Assembly: GCF_024171735.1 (NCBI RefSeq)
Contig: NZ_JAMTCH010000004.1
Location: 186,001 to 250,000, forward strand
Length of the DNA stretch: 64,000 bases
Direction of reading: 5' to 3'
From: Prauserella alba
GTDB lineage: Bacteria; Actinomycetota; Actinomycetes; Mycobacteriales; Pseudonocardiaceae
The position numbers were made by a program, and so were the translations under genes. The notes beneath the pieces are model-generated. The model searched no databases. It was given only the letters and a program-made list of their open reading frames with translations, and was not told the origin of the DNA. Of the stretch, positions 26,392-42,336 are shown piece by piece. How positions within the stretch are numbered: position 1 is the stretch's first letter; the number at the start of each line of letters is the position of its first letter.

Positions 26392-26406
26392 AGAGGTAAG
26401 ACCTCT
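26392..26406. promoter_or_regulatory. GntR box between tauE and the DASS transporter
   Basis: AGAGGT-AAG-ACCTCT is a perfect 15-bp palindrome identical to the box at 34818. It is followed directly by TTGACA (26408-26413), a good -35 for the rightward gene, so bound repressor would cover the promoter. Two AGTGGTCTG direct repeats follow (26413-26421, 26427-26435). Confidence 0.75.
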
Positions 26407-26434: not shown

Positions 26435-28102
26435 GTGTCACTCGTCGGTATGGTGCGGCGCATGGTTACTGAGGTCAACGACGAGGCCGGGTCCGACGGA
26501 GTGCCCGGCCACTCCCGGAGCAGCTCCGGGAGTGATGTCACCTCCGTCCTGTTGTCGGGCACCACGTACCGGAGTCTCGGCGAACAGACACTGTCTCCCA
26601 CCGAGGAACGCTTCGAACGCGCCCGTCGCACCATCGGGTTCGTCCTGGCCCCGGTGGTGACCACGCTGTTCCTGTTCCTGCCCACGTCACTCGACGGCCC
26701 GCAGCACAAACTGGCGGCGATCCTCCTCGGCGTGGTCGTGCTGTGGGTCTGCGAACCCGTACCGATCCCCATCGGCGGGCTCATCGGGGTGTCCGCCATC
26801 GTCCTGTTCGGTGTCGTACCCGCCGACGAAGCACTGGCACCGTTCGGTTCCTCCACGGTCTTCGTGTTCATCGGCGCCTTCATCCTGGCGCAGGCGATGC
26901 TCCGGCACGGTCTCGCGAGACGGTTCGCCTTCCTCGTGTTGTCCCTGCCCGGTGTGGGCAAGACGTCGGCGCGTGTGGTGTGCGCGTTCGGCGCGATCAC
27001 CGCCGTACTGTCCGCGGTCATCTCCAATACGGCGACGGTCGCGATGCTGCTGCCCACCGCGGTCGGCATCCTCGCCGTCATCGCGGAACTTGTTCGCAAG
27101 GATCTGCCCGAGGGCACGCCGTTCGACCCACTCCGGCTGCGCATCGGGGTGGCGCTGATGCTGATGCTCGCCTACGGATCGGGAGCCGGCGGGCTGCTCA
27201 CCCCGATCGGTTCCGCGCCGAACCTCATCGGCCGCGAGTTCATCGAGCGGGCGACCGGCCAGCAGATCTCGTTCCTGAGCTGGTTCCTCACCGCGCTGCC
27301 GATCTGCATCGTGATGTTCCTGCTACTCGCGGGCGTGCTGTTGCTGCTCAACCGTCCCGAGATCAAGAAGCTCTCCGGGATCGAGGACTACGTCGCCGCC
27401 GAGCGCGCGAAGCTCGGCCGCATGTCGTGGGCGGAACGCAACACCCTGATCGCCTTCGGAGTGACGGTCACCCTCTGGATCGTGCCCGGCATCGTGGCAC
27501 TGGTCGCCGGCGACGACTCTGCCGCATACCGAACAGTGAGCTCTCACCTCGACGAAGGCGTCGTCGCGGTTCTCGGGGCTGCGCTGCTCTTCGTACTGCC
27601 GACCAAATGGTCCAACCGGGAGTTCACCCTCACCTGGTCGGAAGCCAGCCGCATCGACTGGGGAACGATCGTGCTGTTCGGCTGCGGCATCATATTCGGC
27701 ACTCTGCTGGCCGAAACCCAGCTCGCCGAGTCGATCGGCACCGGAGCGGCAGCGGCGCTCGGGCTGGGCAGCAACATCGCGATCCTCGTGTTCGCCGTCG
27801 TCCTCGCGGTCGTCATCTCCGAGACCACCTCGAACACCGCGGCGGCGTCGGTGGTGGTGCCGATCCTGATCCCGGTGGCGACGGCCGCCGGTGTCGATCC
27901 GTTCGTTCCCGCACTGGCGGCGACGTTCGCGGCCTCGTTCGGCTTCATGCTGCCGGTGTCGACGCCGCAGAACGCGATCGTCTACGGATCGGGCGCGGTG
28001 CCCATCACCAAGATGGTCCGCTCGGGATTCACCTTCGACATCGCCGGAATCGTCCTGGTGGTGCTGTTGCTGCCCCTCATGGTGGCCATGGTCTTCGGTT
28101 GA
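26435..28102 (+). CDS. DASS (SLC13) divalent anion:Na+ symporter
   Basis: This is an importer of divalent organic anions with about twelve spans. Both DASS signature motifs are present: ISNTATVAMLLPTAVG in the first half and TTSNTAAASVVVPIL in the second, plus a central cytoplasmic loop. Substrates in the family are C4 dicarboxylates, citrate and sulfate; sulfolactate or sulfosuccinate would suit as dianions. Start is ambiguous: GTG 26435, ATG 26450 or ATG 26462, none with a strong ribosome site; 26435 is the outer limit. The first 40 residues are hydrophilic. It converges with gntR across a shared hairpin. Confidence 0.9.
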   Translation: MSLVGMVRRMVTEVNDEAGSDGVPGHSRSSSGSDVTSVLLSGTTYRSLGEQTLSPTEERFERARRTIGFVLAPVVTTLFLFLPTSLDGPQHKLAAILLGVVVLWVCEPVPIPIGGLIGVSAIVLFGVVPADEALAPFGSSTVFVFIGAFILAQAMLRHGLARRFAFLVLSLPGVGKTSARVVCAFGAITAVLSAVISNTATVAMLLPTAVGILAVIAELVRKDLPEGTPFDPLRLRIGVALMLMLAYGSGAGGLLTPIGSAPNLIGREFIERATGQQISFLSWFLTALPICIVMFLLLAGVLLLLNRPEIKKLSGIEDYVAAERAKLGRMSWAERNTLIAFGVTVTLWIVPGIVALVAGDDSAAYRTVSSHLDEGVVAVLGAALLFVLPTKWSNREFTLTWSEASRIDWGTIVLFGCGIIFGTLLAETQLAESIGTGAAAALGLGSNIAILVFAVVLAVVISETTSNTAAASVVVPILIPVATAAGVDPFVPALAATFAASFGFMLPVSTPQNAIVYGSGAVPITKMVRSGFTFDIAGIVLVVLLLPLMVAMVFG

Positions 28103-28122: not shown

Positions 28123-28166
28123 GTGGTGGCGGAGGCCGGTCACATCTCGCCGGCCTCCGCGGCCAC
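28123..28166. terminator. Hairpin between convergent DASS and gntR genes
   Basis: A 17-bp stem (28123-28139 with 28150-28166, two mismatches) and 10-base loop lie at the junction. The gntR stop is in the loop side, so the hairpin covers the last gntR codons. No T-run follows. Confidence 0.5.
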
Positions 28167-28874
28167 CGGGCTGTCCATGTGCCTGCGCGCCGCCGCGTAC
28201 GCACCGCGGATGTGCGCCCGCGCCGCCGAACGTGCCGCGCGCGAATCGCCCGCCTTGATCGCCTCGAGGATCCGGGTGTGCTCGCCGGCCGACTTCTCCA
28301 ACCTGCCCGGCAGGCGCAGCGTCGTCTCCATGCCGGTCACCATGATCTCGTTCAGCACCCCGAGGGTGCGCATCAGGAAACGGTTGCCCGCGACCCGCAC
28401 GACCGCCTCGTGGAACGCGGCGTCCAGCCGCTGCACCTCGTCCCAGTCGACCGGGTCCCGCGTGGCCTCGATGAGCTTGTCGTAGGCGTCCTGAAGCCAC
28501 TCGATGCCGACGTCGGTGCGGTTCTTCGCGGCCCAGCCGGCGGCAGGCACCTCGAGCACCTCGCGCATGGCGAACAGCTCGTCGAGATCGTGCTCGTACG
28601 AGGTGAGGCTGTGGGTCAGCCGCTTCGTCGTCGCAGGCTCCTCGACGAAGACGCCCTGACCGTGACGCACCGCAAGCCGGCCGCGCGCGGACAGGGAGCG
28701 GATGGCCTCCCGCAGCGACGGACGGCTCACGCCCAGCATCGTGGCGAGCTCCCGTTCGGGCGGCAGGCGATCACCCGGCCGCAGTTGCTCCGCCGTGATC
28801 AGTTCCTCGATCCGCTCGGCGATCCGACCGGCGAGCGAACCCGGTGGCTGAATCGGCTCCCACAGGTTGTCCAA
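28140..28874 (-). CDS. GntR-family (FadR subfamily) regulator of the sulfonate island
   Basis: This is a winged-helix regulator with an FCD effector domain. The HTH is PPERELATMLGVSRPSLREA (about 36-56) followed by the wing RLAVRHGQGVFVEE. The FCD domain has the metal/ligand histidines in DAAFHEAVVRVAGN and GEHTRILEAI. No ATG exists before the HTH in frame; the TTG at 28874, seven bases after AAGGA, gives 244 residues. A 15-bp variant palindrome lies 20 bp upstream of this start. FadR-type proteins bind GGTnnnACC-cored palindromes, which is the motif repeated across 25.5-34.8 kb. Confidence 0.88.
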   Translation of the reverse strand: MDNLWEPIQPPGSLAGRIAERIEELITAEQLRPGDRLPPERELATMLGVSRPSLREAIRSLSARGRLAVRHGQGVFVEEPATTKRLTHSLTSYEHDLDELFAMREVLEVPAAGWAAKNRTDVGIEWLQDAYDKLIEATRDPVDWDEVQRLDAAFHEAVVRVAGNRFLMRTLGVLNEIMVTGMETTLRLPGRLEKSAGEHTRILEAIKAGDSRAARSAARAHIRGAYAAARRHMDSPVAAEAGEM

Positions 28875-28893
28875 CGCCTCATCCTTCCGGCCA

Positions 28894-28908
28894 ACTGGTC
28901 TGGCCAGT
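28894..28908. promoter_or_regulatory. Variant GntR box upstream of gntR (autoregulation)
   Basis: ACTGG-TCTGG-CCAGT is a perfect 15-bp inverted repeat, same length and centre as the other boxes but with different outer bases and GCC in place of ACC in one core half. It lies 20 bp before the TTG start. Confidence 0.5.
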
Positions 28909-28989
28909 CTACCTTCGGAACGAGGACAACCCCGACACGGGACACGCACGGGGACGACCGCGGCACGACACCCCCTGACCGGGTGACGG

Positions 28990-30015
28990 TCACCCCCGCG
29001 CGGCGACGGTGTCCAGGCGCTTCGCCCAGTCGTTCAGGTACGTCACGGTGCTGTCGGCGACCTCGACGACGTGGTCGCCGGCCAGTTCCGCCGGGGCGAT
29101 CCGCGATGCACCCGGCGTGCGCCCGCCGGCGTCACCGACCTGCTCGGCGAGCGCGGCGAATCGCTCCACCGCCGCCGGATCGAACGCGCCGGGCCGCATC
29201 GTCACCACCAGGTGGCCGATGCCCTGGGGAACCGCGTCGTCGGCGCGGTTGAACATGTCGGGCACCGCCGACGACAGATTGGGTCCCACGAGACCGCCCG
29301 TCAACGCTTCGACCAGCAGCGCGATGACGAATCCCTTGCTGCCGCCCATAGGCGCGAGCATGCCCTGCAGGGCGGACTGTGCGTCGGTGGTCGGCGCGCC
29401 GTCGGCGTCGAACGCCCAGCCCGGTTCGAGTTCGAGCCCCTGCTGCGCCCGCCAGGCGATGGCACCCCGCGCCACGGCACTGGTGGCCAGGTCGACCACC
29501 ACGGGCCCCGGCTCCGCGGGCACGCCGGCTGCGAGCGGACTCGTCGACAGGACCGGCCGCGTGCCCTGCCACGGCGGCATGACCGCAGGACCGTTGCTGA
29601 ACACCAGGGTCAGCAAGCCCTCGTCGAGGGCCGGGTACACATACGTACCGAGCGCGCCGCAATGGGACGAGTTGCGCACCGCCACGGCCGCGATACCGGT
29701 CGAGCCGCTCAGTTCGGCAGCCCGTTCGGCCGCCTGCCACAGCTGCCAGTGCCCGAGGCCTGCGCCGCCGTCGTACACGACCACGGCGCCCGTGTCGGAC
29801 ACCGGTGTCAGTGCCGCGTCGGCCCGGCAGCCGCCCGCGGCGAGCCGTTCCAGGTAGTGCGGAAGCCGCATGAGTCCGTGAGTGTGCACCCCCCACGCGT
29901 CCGCCAGCACGAGTATCTCCGCCGTCCTGGCCGCGTTCGGCTCGGGCACCCCGGACGCTGTCAACAGCTGCTGCGCGCGGGATCTCAGCTCCCCGGCCGT
30001 GTTCGTGCCGCTCAT
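28990..30015 (-). CDS. comC: Malate/L-lactate dehydrogenase-family oxidoreductase, ComC-like ((R)-sulfolactate dehydrogenase)
   Basis: This 341-residue Ldh2/MDG-type NAD(P)-dependent 2-hydroxyacid dehydrogenase shows family hallmarks: WGVHTHGLMRLPHYLERL (catalytic His, substrate Arg), VRNSSHCGALGTYVYPA, FSNGPAVMPPWQGTRPV and MGGSKGFVIALLVEAL. ComC in the sulfolactate pathway belongs here and interconverts (R)-sulfolactate and sulfopyruvate. The ATG at 30015 overlaps the stop of the SlcC-like gene (ATGA), which argues that the pair acts together to isomerise sulfolactate. General malate/lactate activity cannot be excluded from sequence alone. Confidence 0.82.
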   Translation of the reverse strand: MSGTNTAGELRSRAQQLLTASGVPEPNAARTAEILVLADAWGVHTHGLMRLPHYLERLAAGGCRADAALTPVSDTGAVVVYDGGAGLGHWQLWQAAERAAELSGSTGIAAVAVRNSSHCGALGTYVYPALDEGLLTLVFSNGPAVMPPWQGTRPVLSTSPLAAGVPAEPGPVVVDLATSAVARGAIAWRAQQGLELEPGWAFDADGAPTTDAQSALQGMLAPMGGSKGFVIALLVEALTGGLVGPNLSSAVPDMFNRADDAVPQGIGHLVVTMRPGAFDPAAVERFAALAEQVGDAGGRTPGASRIAPAELAGDHVVEVADSTVTYLNDWAKRLDTVAARG

Positions 30016-30995
30016 GCCGGGGTCCACAGGTCGTGTTTGCCGACCGCGTGCACGGCGCGACGCCCCGCCAGCACGGCGCCGACGTCCTCGGCCAGCACGG
30101 ACGCGATACGTTCCTGGCTCTCCACCGTCAGCCCCGCCACGTGCGGGGTGTAGACGACTGCCGGGTGCGCGTCGAGCGGGCTCCGGCCGGGCGGTTCCGA
30201 CTCGCGCACGTCAAGTCCCGCACCGGCCACGGCCCCCGACCTCAGCGCCGCCGCGAGGGCCGGTTCGTCGATCACCTCACCGCGCCCCGCGTTCACCAGC
30301 ACCGTGCCGGGCCGCATCGCGGCGAACGCATCGTCGCTCAGCACGTGCCGCGTCTCGGCGGTCGCCGGGAGGTGGACGCTGAGCACATCGGCGGAACCGA
30401 TGACGTCGCCCCAGTCCGTCACGGTCACCCCCGCCTCGCGCACGTCCGCAGCCGCGGGGTCGACGTACGGGTCGTACGCCAGCACACGCACGTCGAGACC
30501 TCGTAGCACGCGCGCGACCGCCATACCGGTCGCGCCGAAGCCGAGCAGTCCCCATGTCTTGCCCGAGAGCTCGCGACCCGAACTCCGGTTCCACTGGCCG
30601 TCCCGGACCCTGCGGTCATGGGCGGGAATCTCCCGCAGCACCGCGAGAGCCAACGCGAGCGTGTGCTCGGCCACGCTCATCGCGTTCACGCCGAGTGCCG
30701 CGGACACCACGACGCCTGCACTGTCGGCGGCATCGAGGTCGATGTTGTCCAGACCCGTACCCGCCCGTGCCACGATCCGCAGCTCCGGTGTCGCCGCCAA
30801 CACCTCCGCCGTGATGCTCGCCTTGTTCCGCACGACCACAGCACGCGCGCCGGAGAGGGTGTGCCGCAGCAGGTCGTCGTCCACCCACGCATCGGGCTCC
30901 CATCGGACGTCGTGTGTCCGCGCGAGCGCGTCGAATGCCTCGCCCCACACGTTCTCGACCACCGCCACCGGACCGGCCATTTCCGCACCGTTCAT
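30012..30995 (-). CDS. slcC: D-isomer-specific 2-hydroxyacid dehydrogenase, SlcC-like ((S)-sulfolactate dehydrogenase)
   Basis: This 327-residue enzyme has the NAD-binding GLLGFGATGMAVARVL, the substrate arginine in VVRNKASITAEVL/VARAGTGLDNID, the Arg in LVNAGRGEVIDE, and the catalytic His in YTPHVAGLTVESQERIA. In known sulfolactate pathways SlcC is of this family and works with ComC so that both enantiomers reach the form used by SuyAB. ATG 30995 is chosen; ATG 30980 is an alternative. A GntR box lies 24 bp upstream. Phosphoglycerate dehydrogenase is unlikely because the ACT regulatory domain is absent. Confidence 0.82.
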   Translation of the reverse strand: MNGAEMAGPVAVVENVWGEAFDALARTHDVRWEPDAWVDDDLLRHTLSGARAVVVRNKASITAEVLAATPELRIVARAGTGLDNIDLDAADSAGVVVSAALGVNAMSVAEHTLALALAVLREIPAHDRRVRDGQWNRSSGRELSGKTWGLLGFGATGMAVARVLRGLDVRVLAYDPYVDPAAADVREAGVTVTDWGDVIGSADVLSVHLPATAETRHVLSDDAFAAMRPGTVLVNAGRGEVIDEPALAAALRSGAVAGAGLDVRESEPPGRSPLDAHPAVVYTPHVAGLTVESQERIASVLAEDVGAVLAGRRAVHAVGKHDLWTPA

Positions 30996-31018
30996 TGGAT
31001 CTCGATCCCCGTCCCGTT

Positions 31019-31031
31019 GAGGTTTGACCTC
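31019..31031. promoter_or_regulatory. GntR box upstream of slcC-comC
   Basis: GAGGT-TTG-ACCTC is a perfect 13-bp palindrome with the same core spacing as the other boxes. It is 24 bp before the slcC ATG, in the divergent region shared with suyA, which has its own box at 31146. Confidence 0.7.
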
Positions 31032-31145
31032 TGTCCGACGAACGTAACGCACCGAACATCGGTTGCCAACAAGGCCGTCACCGCGTGCGGACCCTCGCCT
31101 CGCGTTGACAACACTTCTCCCCTGCTTCTAACGTCTGAAACCGGA

Positions 31146-31160
31146 AGAGGTAAGACCACT
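31146..31160. promoter_or_regulatory. GntR box upstream of suyAB
   Basis: AGAGGT-AAG-ACCACT matches the consensus AGAGGTAAGACCTCT with one changed base. It ends 17 bp before the suyA ATG, just ahead of its AGAGGAG ribosome site, so a bound protein would block transcription or initiation. Confidence 0.7.
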
Positions 31161-31177: not shown

Positions 31178-31480
31178 ATGTCTGCTCCCCGGCCAGACTT
31201 CCTGGCCCATCGCTCGGGTGACGCGGTCGGCGTCGCGGTCCGGGACCTCACCCCGGGACCCGTCACGGGCGGGTACCTCGACAGCGACGCCGTCGAAGAA
31301 CTCCAACTCGCCCACGAGGTTCCGCTCGGCCACAAGGTCGCCATCCGCGACATCCGCGAGGGCGACGACGTCATCGAGTACGGAGTCCGGACCGCGATCG
31401 CATCGCAGGACATCGCACGTGGCGATTACGTCCACACGCACAACGTTAGGAGCGCACGGTGGCTCAGCAGCGTCGCCTGA
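31178..31480 (+). CDS. suyA: (R)-sulfolactate sulfo-lyase small subunit SuyA
   Basis: This 100-residue SAF-domain protein matches the N-terminal portion of altronate dehydratase (UxaA), which in SuyA is a separate subunit. It shows LGHKVAIRDIREGDDVIEYG and the end motif GDYVHTHNVRSAR. With SuyB it splits (R)-sulfolactate into pyruvate and sulfite. It starts with a strong AGAGGAG site at 31168 and overlaps suyB by 22 bp. Naming as sulfo-lyase rather than sugar-acid dehydratase rests on the separate-subunit form and on the neighbouring sulfite exporter and dehydrogenase genes. Confidence 0.85.
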   Translation: MSAPRPDFLAHRSGDAVGVAVRDLTPGPVTGGYLDSDAVEELQLAHEVPLGHKVAIRDIREGDDVIEYGVRTAIASQDIARGDYVHTHNVRSARWLSSVA

Positions 31481-32619
31481 CCGGTTACCGACGACCGGAC
31501 GGCTCGGTCGGAACCCGCAACCACGTCGCCATCCTGCCGGTGGACGACCTGTCCAACTCGGCCGCCGAGGGCATCGCGTCACTGGTCCCCGGCACCCTGG
31601 CACTCCCGCACGCTTTCGGGCGACTGCAGTTCGGCGACGACCTGGACCTCACGTTCCGGACCCTCATCGGCATCGGCGCCAATCCGAACGTCGCAGCCGT
31701 CATCGTGATCGGAATCGAGCCGAACTGGACGGACGTCGTCGCCGACGGCATCGCCAAAACCGGCAAGCCCGTACATCGCATCGCGATCGAGGGGCGGGGC
31801 GACCTCCGCGTGATCGAGAGCGCGTCCCGATACGCGAAGAAGTTCCTCCAGGACGCCAGCGAGGTCACCAGGGAACCGGTGGATCGATCCGACATCGTGC
31901 TGTCCATGAAGGACGGTGAGTCGGACACCACCACCGGCCTGGGTTCCTGTCGGGTCACGGCCCACCTCGTCGACCGGTGGGTCGATTCGGGCGGCACCAT
32001 GATCTTCGGGGAGACCAGTGAGCTGACCGGCGGGGAGCACCTCATCGCCGAGCGCTGCGTCAGCGAGGAGGTCCGCAAGCGATTCCAGGGCTTCTACGAC
32101 GACTACGTCGAGATGATCGAGCAGACCGGGGCGAACCTTCTCGGTTCCCAGCCGACGCAGGGCAACATCGCAGGCGGACTGTCGACGATCGAAGAGAAGG
32201 CCATGGGCAACATCGTGAAAACGGGTTCGGTGCCGATCATGGGCGCGCTCGCCCCCGCCGAAGCCCCGTCGGGCCCAGGCCTGCACTTCATGGACACGTC
32301 GTCGGCGGCGGCCGAGTGCGTCACGCTCATGGCGGCCGGGCGCGGCGTCGTCAACCTCTTCCCCACCGGGCAGGGCAACGTGATCGGCAACCCGGTCCAG
32401 CCCGTGGTGAAGATCAGCGCCAACCCGAAGACGACGTCGGCGATGTCCGATCACATCGACGTCGACTGCTCCGACGTGCTGACCCAGGAAGCCACCGTGG
32501 AACAGGCCGGGGACGCGCTGATCGATCTGGTCGAGCGGACCATCAACGGCCGGGTGACTGCATCCGAGGCACTCAACCACCGCGAGTTCACCCTCACCAA
32601 GCTGTACCGCAGCGCATAG
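31459..32619 (+). CDS. suyB: (R)-sulfolactate sulfo-lyase large subunit SuyB
   Basis: This 386-residue protein is the catalytic UxaA-type iron-dependent lyase subunit. It begins with YRRPDGSVGTRNHVAILP, has the cysteine-bearing TTGLGSCRVTAHLVD, the FGETSELTGGEHLIAERC motif and HFMDTSSAAAECVTLMAAG, the family positions where a metal centre is built. It releases sulfite from (R)-sulfolactate, giving pyruvate for central metabolism. GTG start at 31459 follows AGGAG and lies within suyA. A strong hairpin ends the transcript. Confidence 0.87.
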   Translation: MAQQRRLTGYRRPDGSVGTRNHVAILPVDDLSNSAAEGIASLVPGTLALPHAFGRLQFGDDLDLTFRTLIGIGANPNVAAVIVIGIEPNWTDVVADGIAKTGKPVHRIAIEGRGDLRVIESASRYAKKFLQDASEVTREPVDRSDIVLSMKDGESDTTTGLGSCRVTAHLVDRWVDSGGTMIFGETSELTGGEHLIAERCVSEEVRKRFQGFYDDYVEMIEQTGANLLGSQPTQGNIAGGLSTIEEKAMGNIVKTGSVPIMGALAPAEAPSGPGLHFMDTSSAAAECVTLMAAGRGVVNLFPTGQGNVIGNPVQPVVKISANPKTTSAMSDHIDVDCSDVLTQEATVEQAGDALIDLVERTINGRVTASEALNHREFTLTKLYRSA

Positions 32620-32641: not shown

Positions 32642-32675
32642 GACGGGGCACACCTCGATCAAGGTGTGCCCCGTC
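32642..32675. terminator. Terminator between suyB and yeiH
   Basis: A perfect 14-bp GC-rich stem (GACGGGGCACACCT with its complement) and 6-base loop lie between the convergent suyB and yeiH stops. It can serve both strands. There is no T-run, which is common in actinomycetes. Confidence 0.85.
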
Positions 32676-32700: not shown

Positions 32701-33747
32701 TCAGACCGCACCGGCCACTGCCAGTGCCGTGTACCCGGCGACAGCCACCAGGAGTGTGGAGAGCGCGCCGAGTGCCAGTCCCCGCCTGCCTGTCCGAAGC
32801 AGGGAACCCAGGTTCACGCCCGTACCGAGACCGAACAACGCCGCGGCGAACAGCAACGTACCGACCACATCGGACACCGAAAGCAGGATCGGCGGCACCG
32901 CGCCCGTGCTCCGGACCGCCATCATCACCAGGAACGCCACGACGAAGAGCGGAACGAGCGGCGGGCGCTTCCCGGTGGCCGAGGCCGCCGCCGTGCCGTT
33001 GCGGCGGCGGTTCGCAACGCTGACGCCCGCCACCATGGGGGCCAGCAGCACGACACGGGTGAGTTTCACGACCACGGCGACGGCAACCGCCGCCGCACCC
33101 GCGGGCGAGGCGGCGGCGACGACCTGCGCGACCTCGTGGATCGATACGCCCGCCCAGGCGCCGAGTTGCTCGGGCATCATGCCGAGCCACCGGCCCAGCA
33201 GCGGAACCGCGGCGATCGCCCCGCTGCCGTACAACGTCACCAGAGTCACACCGGTGGCGACGTCTTCCCTGTCGCTCTCGGTCACACTGTCCATCGCGGC
33301 GATGGCGGAGGCCCCGCAGATCGAGAATCCCGTTGCCACCAGCAGGCGCAGGCCCGGCGACACCCCCAGGAGGCGCCCCATGCCCAGCGTGCCGAAGAAC
33401 GCCACCACCACTGTCACCGTGACGGCGGCGACCACTCCGGGCCCCAGTTCCAGCACTTCGCCGAGGCCGAGCTGCAGGCCCAGCAGCACGACTCCCACCC
33501 GCAGGAACCGCTTGGTCGCCCACGCCAGGCCCGGCCTCGCCCGCTCGGGAATCCAGCGGCCGACGGCCACCCCGAGGACGACCGCGACGGTCAGGGCGCT
33601 CAGCACCGGCCACAGCCGTGACAGTCCGAACGCCGCGGCGGTTCCCGCCGTCGCCACCGCGATACCGGGCAGTAGTGCATGCCGACGCGCGGATCGGTCC
33701 ACGATCGACTCTTGTTTGGTCACCTCTTCATGGTCGTTCCGGGCCAC
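32701..33747 (-). CDS. YeiH-family (COG2855) putative sulfate/sulfite exporter
   Basis: This 348-residue protein with about ten spans has family hallmarks FGLSRLWPVLSALTVAVVLG, VLLGLQLGLGEVL, ATGFSICGASAIAAMDSVT and GVSIHEVAQVVAAA. Members are proposed to export sulfite or sulfate in sulfonate-degrading bacteria (TauZ/SuyZ type), and in enterics the gene pairs with a LysR regulator as here. The start is uncertain; GTG 33747 gives the family-typical length. It is divergent from lysR with 45 bp between, and converges on suyB. Confidence 0.85.
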   Translation of the reverse strand: MARNDHEEVTKQESIVDRSARRHALLPGIAVATAGTAAAFGLSRLWPVLSALTVAVVLGVAVGRWIPERARPGLAWATKRFLRVGVVLLGLQLGLGEVLELGPGVVAAVTVTVVVAFFGTLGMGRLLGVSPGLRLLVATGFSICGASAIAAMDSVTESDREDVATGVTLVTLYGSGAIAAVPLLGRWLGMMPEQLGAWAGVSIHEVAQVVAAASPAGAAAVAVAVVVKLTRVVLLAPMVAGVSVANRRRNGTAAASATGKRPPLVPLFVVAFLVMMAVRSTGAVPPILLSVSDVVGTLLFAAALFGLGTGVNLGSLLRTGRRGLALGALSTLLVAVAGYTALAVAGAV

Positions 33748-33792
33748 GGACGGCGGTACCGTCGACTCGTTCGCACGTCATAACCTGTGGGA

Positions 33793-34746
33793 ATGACCGA
33801 ACTGCCGGACATCGAATCCTTGCAACTGCTCGTACTCGTGGGTGAGCACCGCAGCCTCACCACCGCCGCGGAGCACGTCGGCACCACCCAGCCCGCTGCG
33901 AGCAAGCGCATTTCCGCGTTGGAGCGCCGTTTCGGCGTCCGGTTGCTCGACAGGTCCCACACCGGATCGACGCTGACCTCGGACGGGCGACTCGTCTGCA
34001 GCTGGGCGGAGCGGGTGATCGAGGACGTCAACCTGCTCGTCGAAGGCGTCAACGCGCTGCGGAGAGAGCGCACCGCGCAGCTGTCGCTGGCGGCGAGTCT
34101 GACGGTCGCCGAGCACCTGCTGCCGACGTGGATCGGTGACCTGCGCCGGCAGGTTGCCGACCTTCACGTGGGCCTCCAGGTGCTCAACTCGACACGGGTG
34201 TGCGAGCTGGTCCGCAGCGGCGAGATCGATCTCGGATTCATCGAGTCCCCCCGCAGACTCCGCAGCCTGCGTTCGCAGATCGTGGCGCGGGACAGGCTGG
34301 TGCTGGTCGTCGCCCCTGGCCACCGCTGGGCGCGCAGGCGCAGGCCCGTCGGCGCGGCCGAACTCGCCACCACCCCGTTAATCAGCAGGGAAAGCGGCTC
34401 GGGTACACGTGACACGGTCGAGCAGGCGCTCCTGGCGACGGGCCTCACCCCCGTGGAACCACTGCTGGAGCTGGGCTCCACGACCGCGGTGCGCAGTTCG
34501 GTCGCCACCGGAGCGGGGCCCGCGCTTCTCAGTGAGCTCGTCGTCGCATCCGATCTCGCGGCGGGGAATCTACGGGAGGTGGCGACCACGGGGATCGACC
34601 TGCACCGGACACTGCGCGCGGTCTGGCACACGGGCGCCGCGCCGTCCGGTGCAGCAGCCGAGTTGCTGGCACTGGCTTCCCGCGCCGGTTCCTCACCCCG
34701 CACGGCATCCGCGCGGGACGCGAAGTCCGAACGCGACCGCAGCTGA
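33793..34746 (+). CDS. LysR-family regulator (YeiE-like)
   Basis: This LysR regulator has an N-terminal winged HTH (LLVLVGEHRSLTTAAEHVG followed by QPAASKRISALERRFGVRLL) and a C-terminal periplasmic-binding-like effector domain (ELVRSGEIDLGFIESPR; GSGTRDTVEQALLATGL; SSVATGAGPALLSELV). It is divergent from the yeiH-like exporter, the same arrangement as yeiE-yeiH of enterics, so it probably controls that exporter in response to sulfite or a sulfonate. ATG 33793 is chosen; GTG 33787 is possible. Neither has a clear ribosome site. Confidence 0.88.
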   Translation: MTELPDIESLQLLVLVGEHRSLTTAAEHVGTTQPAASKRISALERRFGVRLLDRSHTGSTLTSDGRLVCSWAERVIEDVNLLVEGVNALRRERTAQLSLAASLTVAEHLLPTWIGDLRRQVADLHVGLQVLNSTRVCELVRSGEIDLGFIESPRRLRSLRSQIVARDRLVLVVAPGHRWARRRRPVGAAELATTPLISRESGSGTRDTVEQALLATGLTPVEPLLELGSTTAVRSSVATGAGPALLSELVVASDLAAGNLREVATTGIDLHRTLRAVWHTGAAPSGAAAELLALASRAGSSPRTASARDAKSERDRS

Positions 34747-34776: not shown

Positions 34777-34817
34777 CGGGGCTTGTCCCGCGTCCGCGCA
34801 CCCGCTACCGTCCCCGC

Positions 34818-34832
34818 AGAGGTAAGACCTCT
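34818..34832. promoter_or_regulatory. GntR box upstream of the aldehyde dehydrogenase operon
   Basis: AGAGGT-AAG-ACCTCT, a perfect 15-bp palindrome identical to that at 26392-26406, lies 22 bp before the aldehyde dehydrogenase ATG. It links this operon to the sulfonate regulon. Confidence 0.75.
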
Positions 34833-34854
34833 CGCCAACATGGAGGAGTCGTCG

Positions 34855-36276
34855 ATGGGGAACGGAACCATGCTCGTGAACGGCGAATGGTTCGGCACGG
34901 ATTCGGTGCGGGACGTACTGAATCCGGTCGACGACACCGTGATCGACACCGTCGCCTACGGAGGCAGCAAGGAGGCCGTTGCGGCGGCCGACGCTGCGGC
35001 CGATGCCTTCCCCCGCTGGGCAGCGACGCCACCACGACAGCGTGCCGACATTCTCCTGCGGGCCGCGGACCTACTCCGCGACCGTTCGGCAGAACTCGGT
35101 ACGTTGTTGGCGAGAGAAGCGGGGAAACGACTTCCCGAGGGAATCGGTGAGATCGCCTTCTCCGCCGAGTACCTGCGCTGGTTCGCCGAGGAGACGCGAC
35201 GGCCCTCCGGTGCGGTGTACACCCACGAGTCGTCGGATCGCCGGCACCTCAGCCTGCGCAGACCCGCGGGCGTCGTCGCGAGCCTGACCCCGTGGAACTT
35301 CCCGTGCTCCATCCAGGCTCGCAAGCTCGCGCCTGCTCTCGCAGCCGGCTGCACCGTGGTGGCGCGGGTATCGGAGAAGGCGCCGCTCGCGGCCACCGAA
35401 CTCGTGCGGTGCCTCCACGACGCGGGTCTGCCACCCGGTGTGCTCAACCTGGTTCACGGCCCGGCAGCCGAGATCACCGATGCGTATCTGGACCATCCGG
35501 CGGTACGGGTCGTCAGCTTCACCGGGTCGACGGACGTGGGCAGACGCATCATGACCGCGGCCGCAGACCGGATCGTGCGGCCACTGCTCGAGCTCGGCGG
35601 CAACGCGCCCTTCGTCGTGTTCGACGACGCCGACATCGACGCCGCCGTCGAGGGAGCGATGCTCGCGAAGTTCCGCAACACCGGACAATCCTGCATCGCG
35701 GCGAACCGCTTCCTGGTGCACACGGCCGTCCATCAGGAGTTCACCACACGTCTGGCAGCGGCCGTGGATGCGATGTCGATCGGGGACGGACTCGCCGACC
35801 CCACCCCCGATCTCGGCCCGTGCATCGACCGTAATCGGGTGACCGAGGTCGACGAACTCGTCCAGGAGGCCGTTGCCGCCGGCGCCACGAAGCTGACCCG
35901 CGACGCCGAGGTACCGGGGCCGAACTTCGCCCGGCCCACCCTGCTGGCCGACGTTCCCGGCCACGTCGGACTGGCGACCGACGAGGTGTTCGGCCCGGTC
36001 GCGGGCGTGTTCTCGTTCGATACCGAGGAAGCGGCGCTGACCGCGGCGAACAGCACGGAACTGGGCCTGGCCGCCTACGTGTACACCCGCGACCAGGCAC
36101 GCGCATGGCGCTGGTCGGAGCAGTTGGACAACGGCATCGTCGGGGTCAACAACCCGCTTCCCAGTGTCGCGTTCGCCCCGATGGGCGGCACCAAGCAATC
36201 CGGTCTCGGCCGCGAAGGCGCAGCCGCAGGCATTGAAGAGTTCGAAGAGACCAGGTACGTCGCAATCGGTCTCTGA
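34855..36276 (+). CDS. NAD(P)-dependent aldehyde dehydrogenase, candidate sulfolactaldehyde dehydrogenase
   Basis: This 473-residue ALDH of the succinate-semialdehyde dehydrogenase group has ASLTPWNFPCSIQARKLAPA (cofactor pocket), SFTGSTDVGRRIM, the general base in LLELGGNAPFVVFDDADID, the catalytic cysteine in RNTGQSCIAANRFLV, and EVFGPVAGVFSF. In sulfo-Entner-Doudoroff bacteria a GabD-like ALDH oxidises sulfolactaldehyde to sulfolactate, the substrate of the neighbouring ComC/SlcC/SuyAB set. The ATG at 34855 follows GGAGGAG; a longer frame from 34783 runs through the operator and is rejected. Confidence 0.85.
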   Translation: MGNGTMLVNGEWFGTDSVRDVLNPVDDTVIDTVAYGGSKEAVAAADAAADAFPRWAATPPRQRADILLRAADLLRDRSAELGTLLAREAGKRLPEGIGEIAFSAEYLRWFAEETRRPSGAVYTHESSDRRHLSLRRPAGVVASLTPWNFPCSIQARKLAPALAAGCTVVARVSEKAPLAATELVRCLHDAGLPPGVLNLVHGPAAEITDAYLDHPAVRVVSFTGSTDVGRRIMTAAADRIVRPLLELGGNAPFVVFDDADIDAAVEGAMLAKFRNTGQSCIAANRFLVHTAVHQEFTTRLAAAVDAMSIGDGLADPTPDLGPCIDRNRVTEVDELVQEAVAAGATKLTRDAEVPGPNFARPTLLADVPGHVGLATDEVFGPVAGVFSFDTEEAALTAANSTELGLAAYVYTRDQARAWRWSEQLDNGIVGVNNPLPSVAFAPMGGTKQSGLGREGAAAGIEEFEETRYVAIGL

Positions 36277-36316: not shown

Positions 36317-37774
36317 ATGCCGACCGAACACTCCGGACCGCCTCCTGTCATCTCATCGGCGGCGGACGTCAACGAGCTCATCAATTCCGGACGGGCGAAG
36401 GGAGGAAAGTCGACCGCGATCACCATCATCGCGCTCGGGGGCATCTTCATCGACGCCTACGACTTCTCGGCGATCGCCTTCGGCCTCAAGGACATCGCGG
36501 CCACGTTCGAGCTGAGCTCGATCCAAGAAGGCATCGTGTCGGCCTCCATCATGGTCGGTGCGCTCGTCGGCGCCCTGGTCGGCGGATACCTCGTCGACCG
36601 CATCGGGCGCTACAAGATGTTCATGGCCGACATGGTCTTCTTCGTCGTCGCAGCCTTGGCCTGCGCGGTCGCACCCACCTTCGAACTACTCACCGGGGCG
36701 CGATTCGTCCTCGGCATCGGGATAGGAATCGACTTCCCCGTCGCGCTGGCCTTCATCGCCGAGTTCAACGCACTTCGCGGACGCGGCGGAAAGGTGTCGC
36801 TGTGGCAGCCTATGTGGTACTTCGCCACCGGCTGCAGCTTCCTGGTGCTGGTGCCCTTCTACTTCCTCGTACCGGAATCGGGCCATACCGACCTCTGGCG
36901 CTGGGCCGTGGGATTCGGCGCTGTTCCTGCGCTCGCCGTGATGCTCATCCGGCACCGGTACATGAACGAATCACCTGCATGGGCCGCTCGGCAGGGCGAT
37001 CTGCACCGGGCCGCCGAGATCCTCAAGTCGTCGTACGGACTCACCGTCACCGTCGACGACTCCGCACCCGAATCCGCCGCGACCACGCCTCCGTCATCCG
37101 GGCCGCGCGAGTTCGCACGCCTGTTCAGTCCGCGCTACCGGGCACGCACGATTCTGGCCGCATCGGTCAGCGCGCTGCAATCGGTGCAGTACTACGCGGT
37201 CGGATTCGCGTTGCCGGTGATCATCGCCGCCCTCCTGCATCAGGGCAGGCTCACATCCATCGTGGGCCCGTTGGTCTTCAACCTCGTCTTCGGCGTCCTC
37301 GGTGGCCTTCTCGGTGTGCGGCTGAGCAACAAGCTCGGTTCCTGGAAGCTCGCCGCAAGCGGGTTCGCCGTCTGCTTCGCGATGCTCATCGGCCTTGGCT
37401 GGGTCGGCAACGCCGAAGGAGCGATGCTGGTCGCCGTCGGGGCGATGCTCGGCGTGTTCGTGTTCTTCCACTCCTACGGTCCCGGCGCTCAGGGCATGAC
37501 CATCGCGACCCTGAGCTACCCGACGTCCCTTCGCGGCGTCGGCAGTGGTTTCGGCCAGGCGATGCTGCGCATCGGATCCATGGTCTCGCTGTTCTTCTTC
37601 CCCATCCTCAGCGCCGACCTGGGTACCGGGGTGTTCTACGTCGTCGCAGTAGCCCCGCTGATCGGCCTCCTCGTCCTCCTGGCGATCCGATGGGAACCCA
37701 CGAGCGTGGACGTCGACGCGGAGGAAGCGGCCGATCTCGCCGCGACCGCCGCCGCCCGGCATCCGGCTGTGTGA
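36317..37774 (+). CDS. MFS transporter (sugar-porter/organic-acid type)
   Basis: This 485-residue major facilitator protein has twelve predicted spans. It has the loop motif GGYLVDRIGRYKMFMADM after span 2, an acidic residue in span 1 (IFIDAYDFSAIAFGL) and the second-half motif GGLLGVRLSNKLGSWKL. The FIDAYD element recalls aromatic/organic-acid:H+ symporters. It lies 40 bp after the aldehyde dehydrogenase in the same operon and probably imports the compound oxidised there, such as 2,3-dihydroxypropane-1-sulfonate (inference). ATG has AAGGAC upstream. Confidence 0.88.
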   Translation: MPTEHSGPPPVISSAADVNELINSGRAKGGKSTAITIIALGGIFIDAYDFSAIAFGLKDIAATFELSSIQEGIVSASIMVGALVGALVGGYLVDRIGRYKMFMADMVFFVVAALACAVAPTFELLTGARFVLGIGIGIDFPVALAFIAEFNALRGRGGKVSLWQPMWYFATGCSFLVLVPFYFLVPESGHTDLWRWAVGFGAVPALAVMLIRHRYMNESPAWAARQGDLHRAAEILKSSYGLTVTVDDSAPESAATTPPSSGPREFARLFSPRYRARTILAASVSALQSVQYYAVGFALPVIIAALLHQGRLTSIVGPLVFNLVFGVLGGLLGVRLSNKLGSWKLAASGFAVCFAMLIGLGWVGNAEGAMLVAVGAMLGVFVFFHSYGPGAQGMTIATLSYPTSLRGVGSGFGQAMLRIGSMVSLFFFPILSADLGTGVFYVVAVAPLIGLLVLLAIRWEPTSVDVDAEEAADLAATAAARHPAV

Positions 37775-37842: not shown

Positions 37843-38706
37843 ATGAGAATTGCGTTCATCGGCGCAGGAAACATGGGCGGAGCCGTCGCGCGGCGCCTTG
37901 CCACCGGCGGGTACGACGTCCGGGTCGCCGACCACTCACCGTCCGCAGTGGACCGCTGTACCGCGGTCGGTGCCGCTGCGGCCGGGAGCGCCGTGGAAGC
38001 AGCCAAGGGCGCCGACATCGTGTTCACCAGCCTCCCCACTCCGGAGATCGTCACCGAGGTGTGGCGCGAGGTGGCACCGCACCTGTCCGGAACCGCGATA
38101 GCAGTCGACGTGTCGACCATCGACCCCACCACGGCGGACGACCTGGAGACCACGCTCGCGGAACACGGCAACGCGTTCGTCCACTGCGCTCTGGGTAAGA
38201 CCCCGGCCGCTGCGGAGCAAGGCGCCATCCCGCTGTTCACCGGCGGTTCCGGTGCTGCGATCACCACCCTCGCACCCGTTTTCGACCGCATGGGCGAGCG
38301 GACCTACGAGTTCGGTTCCCCGTCGGCCGCGGCCGTGTTCAAGCTCATCTCGAACATGATCGGGATGACGAACGTCGCCGTGCTGAGCGAGGGCCTCACA
38401 CTCGCGGAGAAGGCCGGGATCGACCCGGAGCTGTTCGCCTCGGCGCTCGACGACACGGGCGCCTACTCGTTCCAATCCCAGGTCCGTCTCCCCTGGATGA
38501 TCGCGGGCGACGACACGGCCCGGTTCAGCGCCGAACTCGCGGCGAAGGACCTCCGGCTCGCCGTCGATTCGGCCGGTAGGCTCGGGATTCCCACCCCGGT
38601 GTCCGCCCAGACGCTGGCCCAGCTGCTCAGTACCGTGGTCCACGGACACGGTGACCGGGACGTCGTGGCCATGCGCGCACTGCTGACACCACCCGGCCAC
38701 CGCTGA
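37843..38706 (+). CDS. 3-hydroxyisobutyrate-dehydrogenase-family enzyme, YihU-like (sulfolactaldehyde/DHPS interconversion)
   Basis: This 287-residue beta-hydroxyacid dehydrogenase has the NAD motif FIGAGNMGGAVARRL at the N-terminus and catalytic Lys167 in VFKLISNMIG. Ordinary family members have a PVSGG-type loop, but here it is CALGKTPAAAEQG with G118-K119-T120. This matches in position and type the G-R-T loop that binds the sulfonate in E. coli YihU, the sulfolactaldehyde reductase. With the ALDH it could oxidise dihydroxypropanesulfonate to sulfolactaldehyde and on to sulfolactate. ATG 37843 follows AAGGAGA. Confidence 0.83.
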   Translation: MRIAFIGAGNMGGAVARRLATGGYDVRVADHSPSAVDRCTAVGAAAAGSAVEAAKGADIVFTSLPTPEIVTEVWREVAPHLSGTAIAVDVSTIDPTTADDLETTLAEHGNAFVHCALGKTPAAAEQGAIPLFTGGSGAAITTLAPVFDRMGERTYEFGSPSAAAVFKLISNMIGMTNVAVLSEGLTLAEKAGIDPELFASALDDTGAYSFQSQVRLPWMIAGDDTARFSAELAAKDLRLAVDSAGRLGIPTPVSAQTLAQLLSTVVHGHGDRDVVAMRALLTPPGHR

Positions 38707-38710
38707 GTCC

Positions 38711-38753
38711 CGCCCACACCCGTCACTCGGCGAGCGTGCGACGGGTGTGGGCG
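38711..38753. terminator. Hairpin between the dehydrogenase and ackA
   Basis: A perfect 14-bp stem (38711-38724 with 38740-38753) and 15-base loop lie between the convergent genes. The left arm ends inside the ackA stop codon and the right arm is in its last codons. Confidence 0.65.
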
Positions 38754-39832
38754 GCGATCTCGACGTCCTCCCGTGCAGCCACCACGAAGGTGCGCACCGG
38801 TGCTGCCGCCGTGCTGATGTCGGCGTCGCCCGCGCTCGCCTCGTTGCTCGCCACGTCCAGGGTCACGCCCAGGTACCGCAGGCCGGCCGCGGCCTCCACC
38901 CGCACCCGGGCACTGTGCTCGCCCACGCCACCGGTGAACGCCAGCACATCGATTCCGCCGAGACTGCCCGTCATCGCCGCGATCTCCCTCCGCAGCCGGT
39001 GGACGTACACGTCGAACGCCAGCCGGGACGCCTCGTCGCCGGATTCCATTCCGGACATGATCTCGCGCATGTCGCCGGACCCACCCGCCAGCCCCGCCAG
39101 GCCGGATTCGCGCTCCAGTGCGTGAGACAGGTCCTCGGCGGCCGTTCCCGCGTGCTGTTGCAGCCACAGCACCAGGCCGGGGTCGACACTTCCGGTGCGG
39201 GTCGCCATGACCAGCCCCGCCAGCGGCGTGAAGCCCATCGTCGTGTCGACCGACCGGCCACCGGCCACCGCGGCGAGCGAGGCACCCGCCCCGAGGTGAC
39301 ACGACACGATCCGCAACTCCCGCGCCGGCCTCCCGGCCAGCTGCGCCGCCCGCCGGGCCACGTACGCGTGCGACAGGCCGTGAAACCCGTACCGTCGCAA
39401 CCCCCACCGCCGGTTCCATTCCGCGGGCAGCGCATACGTGGCGGCCGCATCCGGGATCGTCGTGTGGAACGCCGTGTCGAAGCACGCGACCGCCGGTGTG
39501 CCGGGCAGCACCTGCCGTACGGCGTCGATCCCGGCCACACCCCGCGGCTGGTGCAGCGGGGCGAGGTCGGCCAGCCCCTCGATCGCCTCGCGCACTCCGT
39601 CGTCGATCCGCACCGGTTCGCGGAACCGCCGTCCGCCGTGGACGATGCGGTGGCCCACGGCATCGACCGCCGGCAGACCTCGTACGAACCGCTCCAGCTC
39701 GGCCGTGCCGGCGCCGTCCCAGTCTTCGATCGTCACGTCGTCGACGACCTCGTCGGACGCGTCGAGCAGCCGCACCTTCAGACTCGACGATCCGGCGTTG
39801 ACGACCAGGACGTGCACGGGTGATCCCGTCAC
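38723..39832 (-). CDS. ackA: Acetate kinase
   Basis: This 369-residue acetate kinase forms ATP and acetate from acetyl phosphate. It has the N-terminal signature [18 protein letters not shown], the second signature [19 protein letters not shown], and the catalytic residues in [12 protein letters not shown] and YGFHGLSH. It shows [15 protein letters not shown] and [13 protein letters not shown] as well. The GTG at 39832 overlaps the phosphoketolase stop by 4 bp, so the pair turns sugar phosphates into acetate with substrate-level ATP. The longer open frame to 40114 is a shadow. Confidence 0.95.
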
Positions 39833-42213
39833 GACTGCCACACCCAGTCCCGCACCTCGGGCAGGTCGTCCCCGTGCTCGCGGGTCCAGGCGTCGTGCCG
39901 GGTGCGCGCGTCGGCCATGTCCTGCCGCAGCCACGCCGTCGGAACCCCGAGGTCGGGCACCCGGTCCAGCACGTCGATGACCAGGCGGAACCGGTCCATG
40001 TCGTTGCGCACGAGCATGTCGAACGGCGTGGTCGTGGTGCCTTCCTCCTTGTAGCCGCGAACGTGGATGTTCCCGTGGTTGCGCCGGCGGTAGGTCAACC
40101 GGTGGATCAGCCACGGATAGCCGTGATACGCGAGCAGCACCGGCCGGTCCGTCGTGAACAGCGCGTCGAACTCGGCATCGGTCATGCCGTGCGGATGTTC
40201 ACTCGCCGACTGCAACCGCATCAGATCGACGATGTTGACGACCCGCACCGCCAAGTCCGGCAGCCGCTCCCGCAGGATCGACGTCGCGGCCAGCACTTCC
40301 ACCGTCGGCGCGTCCCCTGCACACGCCAGCACCACGTCGGGTTCCCTGCCGGCGTCGGAACTCGCCCACTCCCAGATGCCCGCACCGCGGGCGCAGTGCA
40401 GCACCGCCTCGTCGGCATCCAGCCACTCCGGTGTCCGGTTCTTCCCGGCTACCACGACGTTGACGTAGTCACGGCTGCGCAAACAGTGGTCGGCCACCGA
40501 CAGCAGCGTGTTCGTGTCCGGCGGGAGATAGACCCGGATGATCTCGGCCTTCTTGTTCATCACGTGGTCGATGAACCCGGGATCCTGGTGCGAGAAACCG
40601 TTGTGATCCTGCCGCCACACGTGCGAGGTCAACAGGTAGTTCAGCGAGGCGATGGGCCTGCGCCAGTCGAGCCCGTGACTCGTCTTCAACCACTTCGCAT
40701 GCTGGTTGAACATCGAGTCCACGATGTGAATGAACGCCTCGTAGCAGGACAGCAGCCCGTGCCTGCCGGTGAGCAGATATCCTTCGAGCAACCCTTGGCA
40801 CACGTGCTCCGACAGCATCTCGATGACGCGCCCGTCCCTGGCCAGGTGCTCATCGGTGCCGCGAATCTCGCCGAGCCACTGTTTCCCGCTCGCGCCGTAG
40901 ACCGCGTCGAGCCGGTTCGACTCGGTCTCGTCGGGACCGAACAGGCGGAAGTTGCGATGATCCTCGTTGGCCCGCAGCACATCCCGTAACCAGCGTCCCA
41001 GCACTCGGGTCGGCTCCGACATCGTCGACCCGGGCTTGGTGACCTCCGAGCCGTGCTCGCGGAAATCGGGAAGCCGCAACGGTTTCAGCAGTCTTCCGCC
41101 GTTGGCGTGCGGGTTCGCGCCCATGCGGCGCTCGCCCGCCGGGACCTGCGCCGCCAACTCGGGCCGGGGCGCACCGTGCTCGTCGAACAGTTCCTCCGGC
41201 CGGTAGGAACGCAGCCACGACTCCAGTTGCTGCCGATGATCGGCGTTCTCCCTGACGTCGGCCAGCGGGATCTGGTGCGAACGCCACGTGTCGGCCACCG
41301 GCTTTCCGTCCACTTCGGATGGACAGGTCCAGCCCTTCGGGGTGCGCAGCACGAGGACGGGCCACTGCGGACGGTCTGCGAGGCCCCGTTCGCGCGCGCT
41401 GCCCTGGATGACGCCGATGTCGTCCACGATGCGGTCGAGCGTGGCGGCCATCGCCCGGTGCATCGTGGCGGGCTCGTCACCTTCGACGTAGTACGGCAGG
41501 TATCCGTAACCACGCAACAGCGCGTCGAGCTCCTCCTGCGGAATGCGGGCGAGAACCGCCGGATTGGCGATCTTGTACCCGTTGAGGTGCAGGATCGGCA
41601 GCACGGCACCGTCGGTCGCCGGGTTGAGGAACTTGTTGATGTGCCAGCTGGTGGCCATCGGTCCCGTCTCCGCCTCACCGTCGCCGATCACACATGCCAC
41701 CAGCAGGTCCGGATTGTCCAGCACGGCACCGTAGGCGTGCGCCAGCGAGTAGCCGAGCTCGCCACCCTCGTGGATCGAACCGGGTGTCTCCGCCGCCACA
41801 TGGCTCGGCATCCCGCCGGGGAACGAGAACTCACGGAACAGTCGGCGCATGCCGTCCTCGTCCTGCCCGACAGCGGGATAGGCCTCACTGTAGGTGCCTT
41901 CGAGCCAGGTGTTCGCGAGCACGCCAGGACCGCCGTGACCGGGGCCCATCACGTACATGACGTTGCGCTCGCGCCGCCGGATCATTCGGTTCAGATGCGC
42001 GTAGACGAAGTTCAGACCGGGGGTGGTGCCCCAGTGCCCCAGCAACCGCGGCTTGATGTGCTCGACGCGCAGCGGCTCCCGCAACAGCGGGTTGTCCAGC
42101 AGATACAGCTGCCCGGCCGACAGATAGTTCGCCGCGCGCCAGTACGCATCGAGTGAGCGCAGCTCGTCGTCGTGGAGCAGATGGGCATCGGTCACGGTCG
42201 CCTGTCCGGCCAT
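39829..42213 (-). CDS. xfp: Phosphoketolase (xylulose-5-P/fructose-6-P)
   Basis: This thiamine-diphosphate enzyme of 794 residues splits xylulose-5-phosphate or fructose-6-phosphate with phosphate to acetyl phosphate. It shows [29 protein letters not shown], the TPP motif [16 protein letters not shown], and [15 protein letters not shown], all diagnostic. ATG 42213 follows AGGGGA; longer frames are not supported. It is upstream of and coupled to ackA. The pair is not visibly linked to the GntR boxes of the neighbouring sulfonate island. Confidence 0.96.
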
Positions 42214-42336
42214 GTCGGGTCCCCTCGTGTCCGGGTCTGCCACGTCGCCGTGGACTACCCGGGCAGCACCTCGACCCAATCCCGTGACCGGTGGCGTGGC
42301 CCGATCGGCCGCCGTGACCGACCAGGCCCGCGGCGA

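Follow-up and report, generated by a model that had tools for sequence, protein, structure and literature searches.

A candidate DhpA-type dihydroxypropanesulfonate dehydrogenase with a G-K-T substrate loop in a putative sulfonate-degradation cluster of Prauserella alba

The window, a stretch of 64,000 nucleotides from the actinobacterium Prauserella alba, holds on its + strand an intact open reading frame at 37843 to 38706 (287 codons plus the stop), which we consider a candidate gene for a DhpA-type dehydrogenase of 2,3-dihydroxypropane-1-sulfonate (DHPS). Just upstream on the same strand are genes for an MFS transporter (36317 to 37774), a candidate importer of DHPS or sulfolactate that adjoins dhpA in all four relatives compared (L092 to L095), and for an aldehyde dehydrogenase (ALDH; 34855 to 36276) that resembles succinate-semialdehyde dehydrogenase (SSADH) and SlaB, is a candidate sulfolactaldehyde dehydrogenase, and has orthologs in L093 and L095. 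The start of the ALDH was placed at 34855 from a GGAGGAG site; the list of open reading frames starts it at 34783, and our searches used 34843 to 36276. By sequence, the ALDH is indistinguishable from SSADH: in an alignment to the E. coli SSADH, judged by eye, it has both arginines that were proposed to bind the sulfonate in RlGabD (R171 and R289), and the E. coli and human SSADHs share both of them.

The other sulfonate-related genes lie farther upstream. On the + strand are suyA-like (31178 to 31480) and suyB-like (31459 to 32619) genes for the putative small and large subunits of (R)-sulfolactate sulfo-lyase, which are split UxaA-type subunits and resemble the SuyB-like genes that accompany dhpA in sulfite-reducing bacteria. 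The suyA-like product has one weak NCBIfam match and no Pfam match; at 14 dhpA loci of the Desulfobacterota type there are SuyB-like stretches that match most of the suyB-like product with 56 to 59% identity, and a truncated stretch at a 15th locus is 67% identical to it. On the - strand are a slcC-like D-2-hydroxyacid dehydrogenase (30012 to 31052), a candidate (S)-sulfolactate dehydrogenase, and a comC-like Ldh_2 dehydrogenase (28990 to 30027), a candidate (R)-sulfolactate dehydrogenase that scores 168 bits against the L-sulfolactate dehydrogenase model (cutoff of 500). Two regulators are encoded: a GntR/FCD protein (28140 to 28949, - strand), whose ortholog (59% identity) adjoins suyA in L093, and a LysR-type protein (33787 to 34746, + strand). 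Putative transporters include a DASS (SLC13-type) anion symporter (26435 to 28102, + strand), which is a candidate sulfonate transporter; a TauE/SafE-family permease (25604 to 26329, - strand), which is a candidate sulfite exporter; and a YeiH-like (PF03601) putative exporter of sulfate or sulfite (32701 to 33747, - strand; 140 bits, as against the NCBIfam cutoff of 232.6). Between suyB and yeiH, at 32642 to 32675, is an inverted repeat with 14-base arms, perhaps a two-way terminator. On the other side, dhpA is followed by genes on the - strand for acetate kinase and phosphoketolase (as identified by Pfam; 38723 to 40114 and 39829 to 42279), and their position is kept in L092 and L095.

The dhpA-like protein has the domains (PF03446 and PF14833) and the fold of the beta-hydroxyacid dehydrogenases, with a pLDDT of 96 for the structure model. 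It carries the pair K167 and N171, which we take to be the usual catalytic residues of this family, and D30 is placed after the second strand, which presumably fits NAD(H). A preliminary description of this DNA had reported a G-K-T loop at residues 118 to 120, and the translation agrees: the context is F112-V-H-C115-A-L-G118-K119-T120-P-A-A-A-E-Q-G, with the three codons at 38194 to 38202 (+ strand). In the structure model, the loop sits after the strand formed by residues 111 to 117 and before the helix at 121 to 125. The same description had contrasted this loop with G-R-T in YihU and S-G-G in 3-hydroxyisobutyrate dehydrogenases (HIBADH), and these equivalences hold as well. G118-K119-T120 aligns to G122-R123-T124 of the YihU chain (PDB 6sm7), a loop that we take to bind the sulfonate, and to S-G-G in chains 3obb and 3cky.

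None of the family models that we considered claims the protein, which falls below the cutoff of each of the 16 listed NCBIfam models. It scores 137 bits against the YihU model (NF012005; cutoff of 348, which the E. coli control passes), 137 bits against the HIBADH model (cutoff of 291.6), and 122 bits against the tartronate-semialdehyde reductase (TSR) model (cutoff of 340.75). Its identity to YihU is about 30%. Among solved chains it is closest to 9k2j, with 42% identity and the same LGKTPA loop. As 9k2j is about 80% identical to homologs from Desulfovibrio, this chain belongs with the Desulfobacterota part of the clade described below. In a fold search, 9k2j came first by E value, with a TM score of 0.90, and other chains of the family reached TM scores of up to 0.95. 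The YihU chain 6sm7 superposed poorly (rank 47, TM score of 0.65, root mean square deviation of 14.4), perhaps because of a different domain arrangement.

To place the protein within the family, we used a pattern-led scan of bacterial genomes (80 of 95 relatives retained). The scan used two peptides drawn from the dhpA-like protein (P0001) and from 9k2j, at residues 1 to 9 and about 165 to 172. The sample is uneven and enriched for the G-K clade, and conservation within the pattern regions (at S170, for example) is partly by construction, since the patterns cover them; residues 118 to 120 and 215 lie outside both patterns. The tree has 93 rows and a midpoint root, excludes short or redundant sequences (L032, L042, L074, L080, L084, L086, L087, and L110), and retains one duplicate (L108, which is the same as L011). 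It contains one group of 44 rows (41 with G-K and 3 with G-L or G-M) with support of 100/99, which includes five sequences from Pseudonocardiaceae, 9k2j, and sequences from Desulfobacterota. The five Pseudonocardiaceae sequences form a deep branch of this G-K clade: the actinobacterial rows are 57 to 92% identical to each other, and P0001 is 34 to 43% identical to the rest of the clade. The YihU pair falls outside as the sister of the whole clade (support of 88/91, given the midpoint root and just two YihU rows). The YihU side of the tree is limited to these two rows; a sample of 369 genomes of Gammaproteobacteria gave one YihU relative.

The lysine is characteristic of the clade. Of 48 clade rows, 45 have K at position 119 (43 of 46 once duplicates are removed), two have L, and one has M; the 51 other rows of the family have G (46) or R (5) and never K, which rules out a chance G-K-T motif. 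(These counts exclude L084 and L086 and include the duplicates L087, which equals L007, and L108, which equals L011.) Because G-K is the rule in a separate clade, the loop is not a one-off substitution in YihU. Thus, of the preliminary description's proposal, a candidate C3-sulfonate oxidoreductase that does not look like an ordinary HIBADH or TSR stands, but a YihU-like enzyme with a conservative replacement of arginine by lysine is not supported, and we rejected it on the separate clade and the score below the YihU cutoff. Other residues that hardly occur outside the clade are D94, C115, L117, P130, G174, M175, T205, G206, Q211, and R215, and both Q211 and R215 are invariant in 46 of 46 members. 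As R215 is fixed and K119 is not, R215 is no weaker than K119 as a candidate ligand of the sulfonate. Clade members from Firmicutes mostly have G-K-G. The three sequences in which M or L replaces K119 (L008, L104, and L111) keep most of the other signature residues, and the genome of L111 holds a second copy with a G-K-G loop. Two sequences outside both the YihU and the DhpA groups (L047 and L055) have A-R-T, so a basic residue at this position is not confined to those groups.

We compared the gene neighborhoods of 31 non-actinobacterial clade loci to those of 46 other loci. SuyB-like stretches were present at 15 of the 31 and at 0 of the 46 (Fisher P = 9e-8, which is only a guide, as related loci are not independent). 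Two loci with GKT loops (L032 and L042) were left out of this count; their examined DNA contained no SuyB, and including them makes the count 15 of 33. An ALDH gene was near dhpA at 15 of the 31 clade loci, a gene for AFOR at 17, and one for an SsuA/TauT-type ABC protein at 6; at least one of SuyB, ALDH, and AFOR was found at 26. Within the window, nothing matched the AFOR protein or the ABC proteins encoded at L008. This speaks against a DhpA-type function, but as AFOR (17/31) and the ABC protein (6/31) are each present at only some of the clade loci, we do not treat these genes as defining. At eight of the 31 loci, no SuyB, ALDH, or PFK was seen, and six of these eight are on contigs of under 12 kb. 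We also used Pfam to read five loci from Firmicutes. The Megamonas locus (L025) has genes for GH31, a PFK-type kinase, and a class II aldolase; the Bacillus locus (L051) has a kinase, an aldolase, an MFS transporter, and an ALDH; in Neobacillus (L011), MFS and ALDH genes precede the gene; the Pelosinus locus (L016) has an IlvD/EDD-type dehydratase and a TauE gene; and L008, whose loop is G-M-G, has ABC, iron-ADH, and AFOR genes. The kinase and aldolase families at L025 are those of the sulfo-EMP2 pathway, and Megamonas rupellensis reduces sulfolactaldehyde to DHPS (both from the excerpted text of PMC9594981). On the whole, the clade seems to track C3 sulfonates, and some of its loci give no indication either way.

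In a sample of 396 genomes from the phylum of P. alba, our own genome was the sole one with a match at 1e-50 among the matches listed (at most six candidates were scored per genome), which is a weak negative. Among the genomes of 100 relatives, five carry dhpA at 1e-45 (our own included), or four more than in the phylum sample. All five also carry SuyB at 1e-100, and two more genomes have SuyB without dhpA. The closest locus that we found is from Prauserella salsuginis (Pseudonocardiaceae), with 93% protein identity; L007, L087, L095, and L097 (G401) are one region of this genome, and P. salsuginis is counted once. In a relative from another genus (L093), the genes are compactly arranged in the order GntR, suyA, suyB, ALDH, MFS, dhpA, slcC, comC, with gaps of under 80 bases from suyA on. 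In G397 (L092), the ALDH is missing from between LysR and MFS, and in G419 (L094), MFS-dhpA and suyAB are on different contigs. Neither G397 nor G419 has an ALDH that is more than 47% identical to that of the window, and a housekeeping SSADH may convert sulfolactaldehyde to sulfolactate in both. The two genomes that have SuyB but no dhpA homolog at 1e-45 (G432, locus L101; and G440, locus L102) carry the palindrome described next upstream of SuyB, and they are perhaps users of sulfolactate only.

The window contains a palindrome, AGAGGTAAGACCWCT (GGT-N3-ACC), which occurs there three times on the + strand as a putative operator: AGAGGTAAGACCTCT at 34818 to 34832 precedes ALDH-MFS-dhpA, AGAGGTAAGACCACT at 31146 to 31160 precedes suyA, and AGAGGTAAGACCTCT at 26392 to 26406 lies between the divergent TauE-like and DASS genes. 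By chance, 0.04 occurrences are expected in the window with up to two mismatches. In the whole genome of 5.6 Mb, exactly these three are found with up to one mismatch, and the reversed control gives 0. Upstream of suyA or suyB, the palindrome is present without mismatches in L007, L092, L099, L101, and L102 and with one mismatch in L093. In L007 it also precedes the ALDH; L092 and L094 lack the ALDH and have a version with two mismatches directly upstream of MFS-dhpA. No palindrome with one mismatch was found in 1.26 Mb of other loci. GGT-N3-ACC is, as we understand it, the operator type of FCD-family GntR proteins, and we infer that the GntR/FCD protein at 28140 probably controls these transcription units through the palindrome; the LysR protein at 33787 is the rival reader. 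The preliminary description had put the gene in a sulfonate regulon together with an ALDH, and both the ALDH (about 34855 to 36276) and sulfonate genes (31178 to 32619, among others) are present. The G-K-T codons (38194 to 38202) happen to read GGTAAGACC, which is the nine-base core of the operator and its only fourth occurrence in the window. We rejected an operator inside dhpA at these codons: four relatives have the same residues with other bases, so the match is probably a coincidence. Given the codon use of seven window genes, about 9% of GKT triplets would be expected to read GGTAAGACC.

From the sequence, the clade, the gene neighborhood, and the palindromes, which are our own observations, and from the activity that others have demonstrated for a relative, we infer the substrate, direction, cofactor, and sulfonate contacts of this enzyme. 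We think it very probable that the gene product is a DhpA-type DHPS dehydrogenase that opens a route from DHPS via sulfolactaldehyde and sulfolactate to pyruvate and sulfite. The enzyme would probably oxidize DHPS at C3 to sulfolactaldehyde, with NAD+ as the acceptor, and K119 in the substrate loop, the clade-specific R215, or both would hold the sulfonate. The ALDH encoded upstream would convert sulfolactaldehyde to sulfolactate, the SlcC- and ComC-like dehydrogenases would take sulfolactate via sulfopyruvate to its R form, SuyAB would cleave (R)-sulfolactate to pyruvate and sulfite, and the TauE-like or the YeiH-like protein may export the sulfite. SuyAB acts on (R)-sulfolactate, and SlcC and ComC interconvert the enantiomers (PMC12421959, PMC9594981, and PMC11382572, in excerpt). 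The presence of both modules therefore suggests that DhpA and the ALDH deliver (S)-sulfolactate, at least in part.

Three other functions deserve consideration. The enzyme might act mainly as a sulfolactaldehyde reductase, in the direction of YihU, with DHPS as an overflow product. It shares its fold and a reversible chemistry with YihU, and the clade members in the sulfo-EMP2-like clusters of Firmicutes are probably reductases, but here the gene has an ALDH as its partner in the operon and behind the palindrome, and SuyAB, SlcC, and ComC as partners in the regulon, all of them from an oxidizing, desulfonating route, so we consider this unlikely. (One model of sulfoquinovosidase, YihQ, had no match above its cutoff in the genome, and no control genome passed either, including E. 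coli, so this result carries little weight.) Still less likely is an ordinary HIBADH or TSR that lies beside sulfonate genes by chance. The closest NCBIfam scores are spread over the YihU, HIBADH, and TSR models, and 9k2j is titled a 3-hydroxyisobutyrate dehydrogenase. The genome encodes five further members of the family, and among the three that we scanned, none reaches the HIBADH cutoff, so no other HIBADH was identified. However, all three model scores are under half of the curated cutoffs, the substrate loop is G-K-T instead of S-G-G, the clade is linked to SuyB, the palindrome precedes the operon, and a separate TSR is encoded elsewhere in the genome (L003, with 357 bits against the cutoff of 340.75). 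Also, the characterized relative, DhpA of Desulfovibrio sp. DF1, is inactive on 3-hydroxyisobutyrate (PMC6278857, in excerpt). We rejected the ordinary HIBADH or TSR on the model scores, the loop residues, and the separate TSR. Least credible as the substrate is a C3 or C2 sulfonate or analogue other than DHPS. The deep, distinct branching of the actinobacterial rows would allow for a shift in substrate, and two relatives lack the ALDH ortholog, but SuyAB and SlcC/ComC indicate sulfolactate, whose aldehyde, one ALDH step up, has DHPS as its alcohol.

DHPS is an abundant product of the breakdown of sulfoquinovose and of phytoplankton. A DhpA-type DHPS dehydrogenase would most likely start its degradation in this soil actinobacterium, and it belongs to a group that was first characterized in Desulfovibrio, in which G-K-T is normal. 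L-G-K together with R215 is a simple sequence marker by which enzymes of the DhpA type may be told apart from proteins that carry a 3-hydroxyisobutyrate dehydrogenase annotation, and the three-site palindrome delimits a compact candidate regulon for DHPS in soil actinobacteria. More broadly, and tentatively, as we would put this at slightly short of an even chance, the G-K clade could be a second family of C3-sulfonate alcohol dehydrogenases, apart from YihU, in which the loop lysine and the clade-only R215 replace the arginine of YihU. Such a family would work in both directions, oxidizing DHPS in sulfite reducers and in Pseudonocardiaceae and reducing sulfolactaldehyde in some Firmicutes, and its actinobacterial branch would be under a three-site GntR switch dedicated to the use of DHPS.

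Among known systems, YihU shares with the window enzyme its family, the reverse chemistry, and a basic residue in the loop (R123 in 6sm7), but it differs in its low identity (30%) and its separate clade, and the window protein scores below the YihU cutoff. The chain 9k2j is alike in its LGKTPA loop, with 42% identity and a TM score of 0.90, and differs in its place near the Desulfobacterota members of the clade. The closest functional parallel is DhpA of Desulfovibrio sp. DF1, a COG2084 protein that is 27% identical to YihU and uses NAD+, and not NADP+, to oxidize DHPS to sulfolactaldehyde, with a Km of 36 uM at pH 9.5; it works with SlaB and SuyAB, and a gene for AFOR is encoded with it (PMC6278857, in excerpt). 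We liken the two enzymes via the clade, to which DF1 DhpA would belong, and via the anatomy of the loci, rather than by a direct comparison of sequences. Both are of the COG2084 type with low identity to YihU (27% for DF1 and 30% here), both genomes encode an SSADH-like ALDH and SuyAB, and many G-K clade loci show partners of the DF1 type. The differences are that the window enzyme is from the deep actinobacterial branch, that its locus has MFS and DASS transporters, with no AFOR or ABC genes found in the window, and that SlcC, ComC, and TauE- and YeiH-like exporters are present.

The SlcC/ComC-SuyAB module of Chromohalobacter and Paracoccus wurundjeri involves the same gene families for the racemization and cleavage of sulfolactate, but P. 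wurundjeri is without a homolog of SlaB or GabD, whereas the window has an ALDH and a DhpA-type enzyme (PMC12421959, in excerpt). In the excerpted main texts that we searched, we found no description of the loop motif, R215, or the palindrome, which is weak evidence of novelty (the sources include PMC11489063, PMC12330013, PMC8873060, PMC12890257, PMC12608037, and PMC11382572). The excerpted main text of a survey of sulfolactaldehyde dehydrogenases (SLADH) likewise names no Pseudonocardiaceae species, loop motif, or operator, but it describes DHPS clusters with an SLA dehydrogenase and a DHPS dehydrogenase, mainly from Actinobacteria (PMC10599462). Since actinobacterial DHPS clusters are already in print, we view the cluster in the window as a further, DhpA-like case of a published kind.
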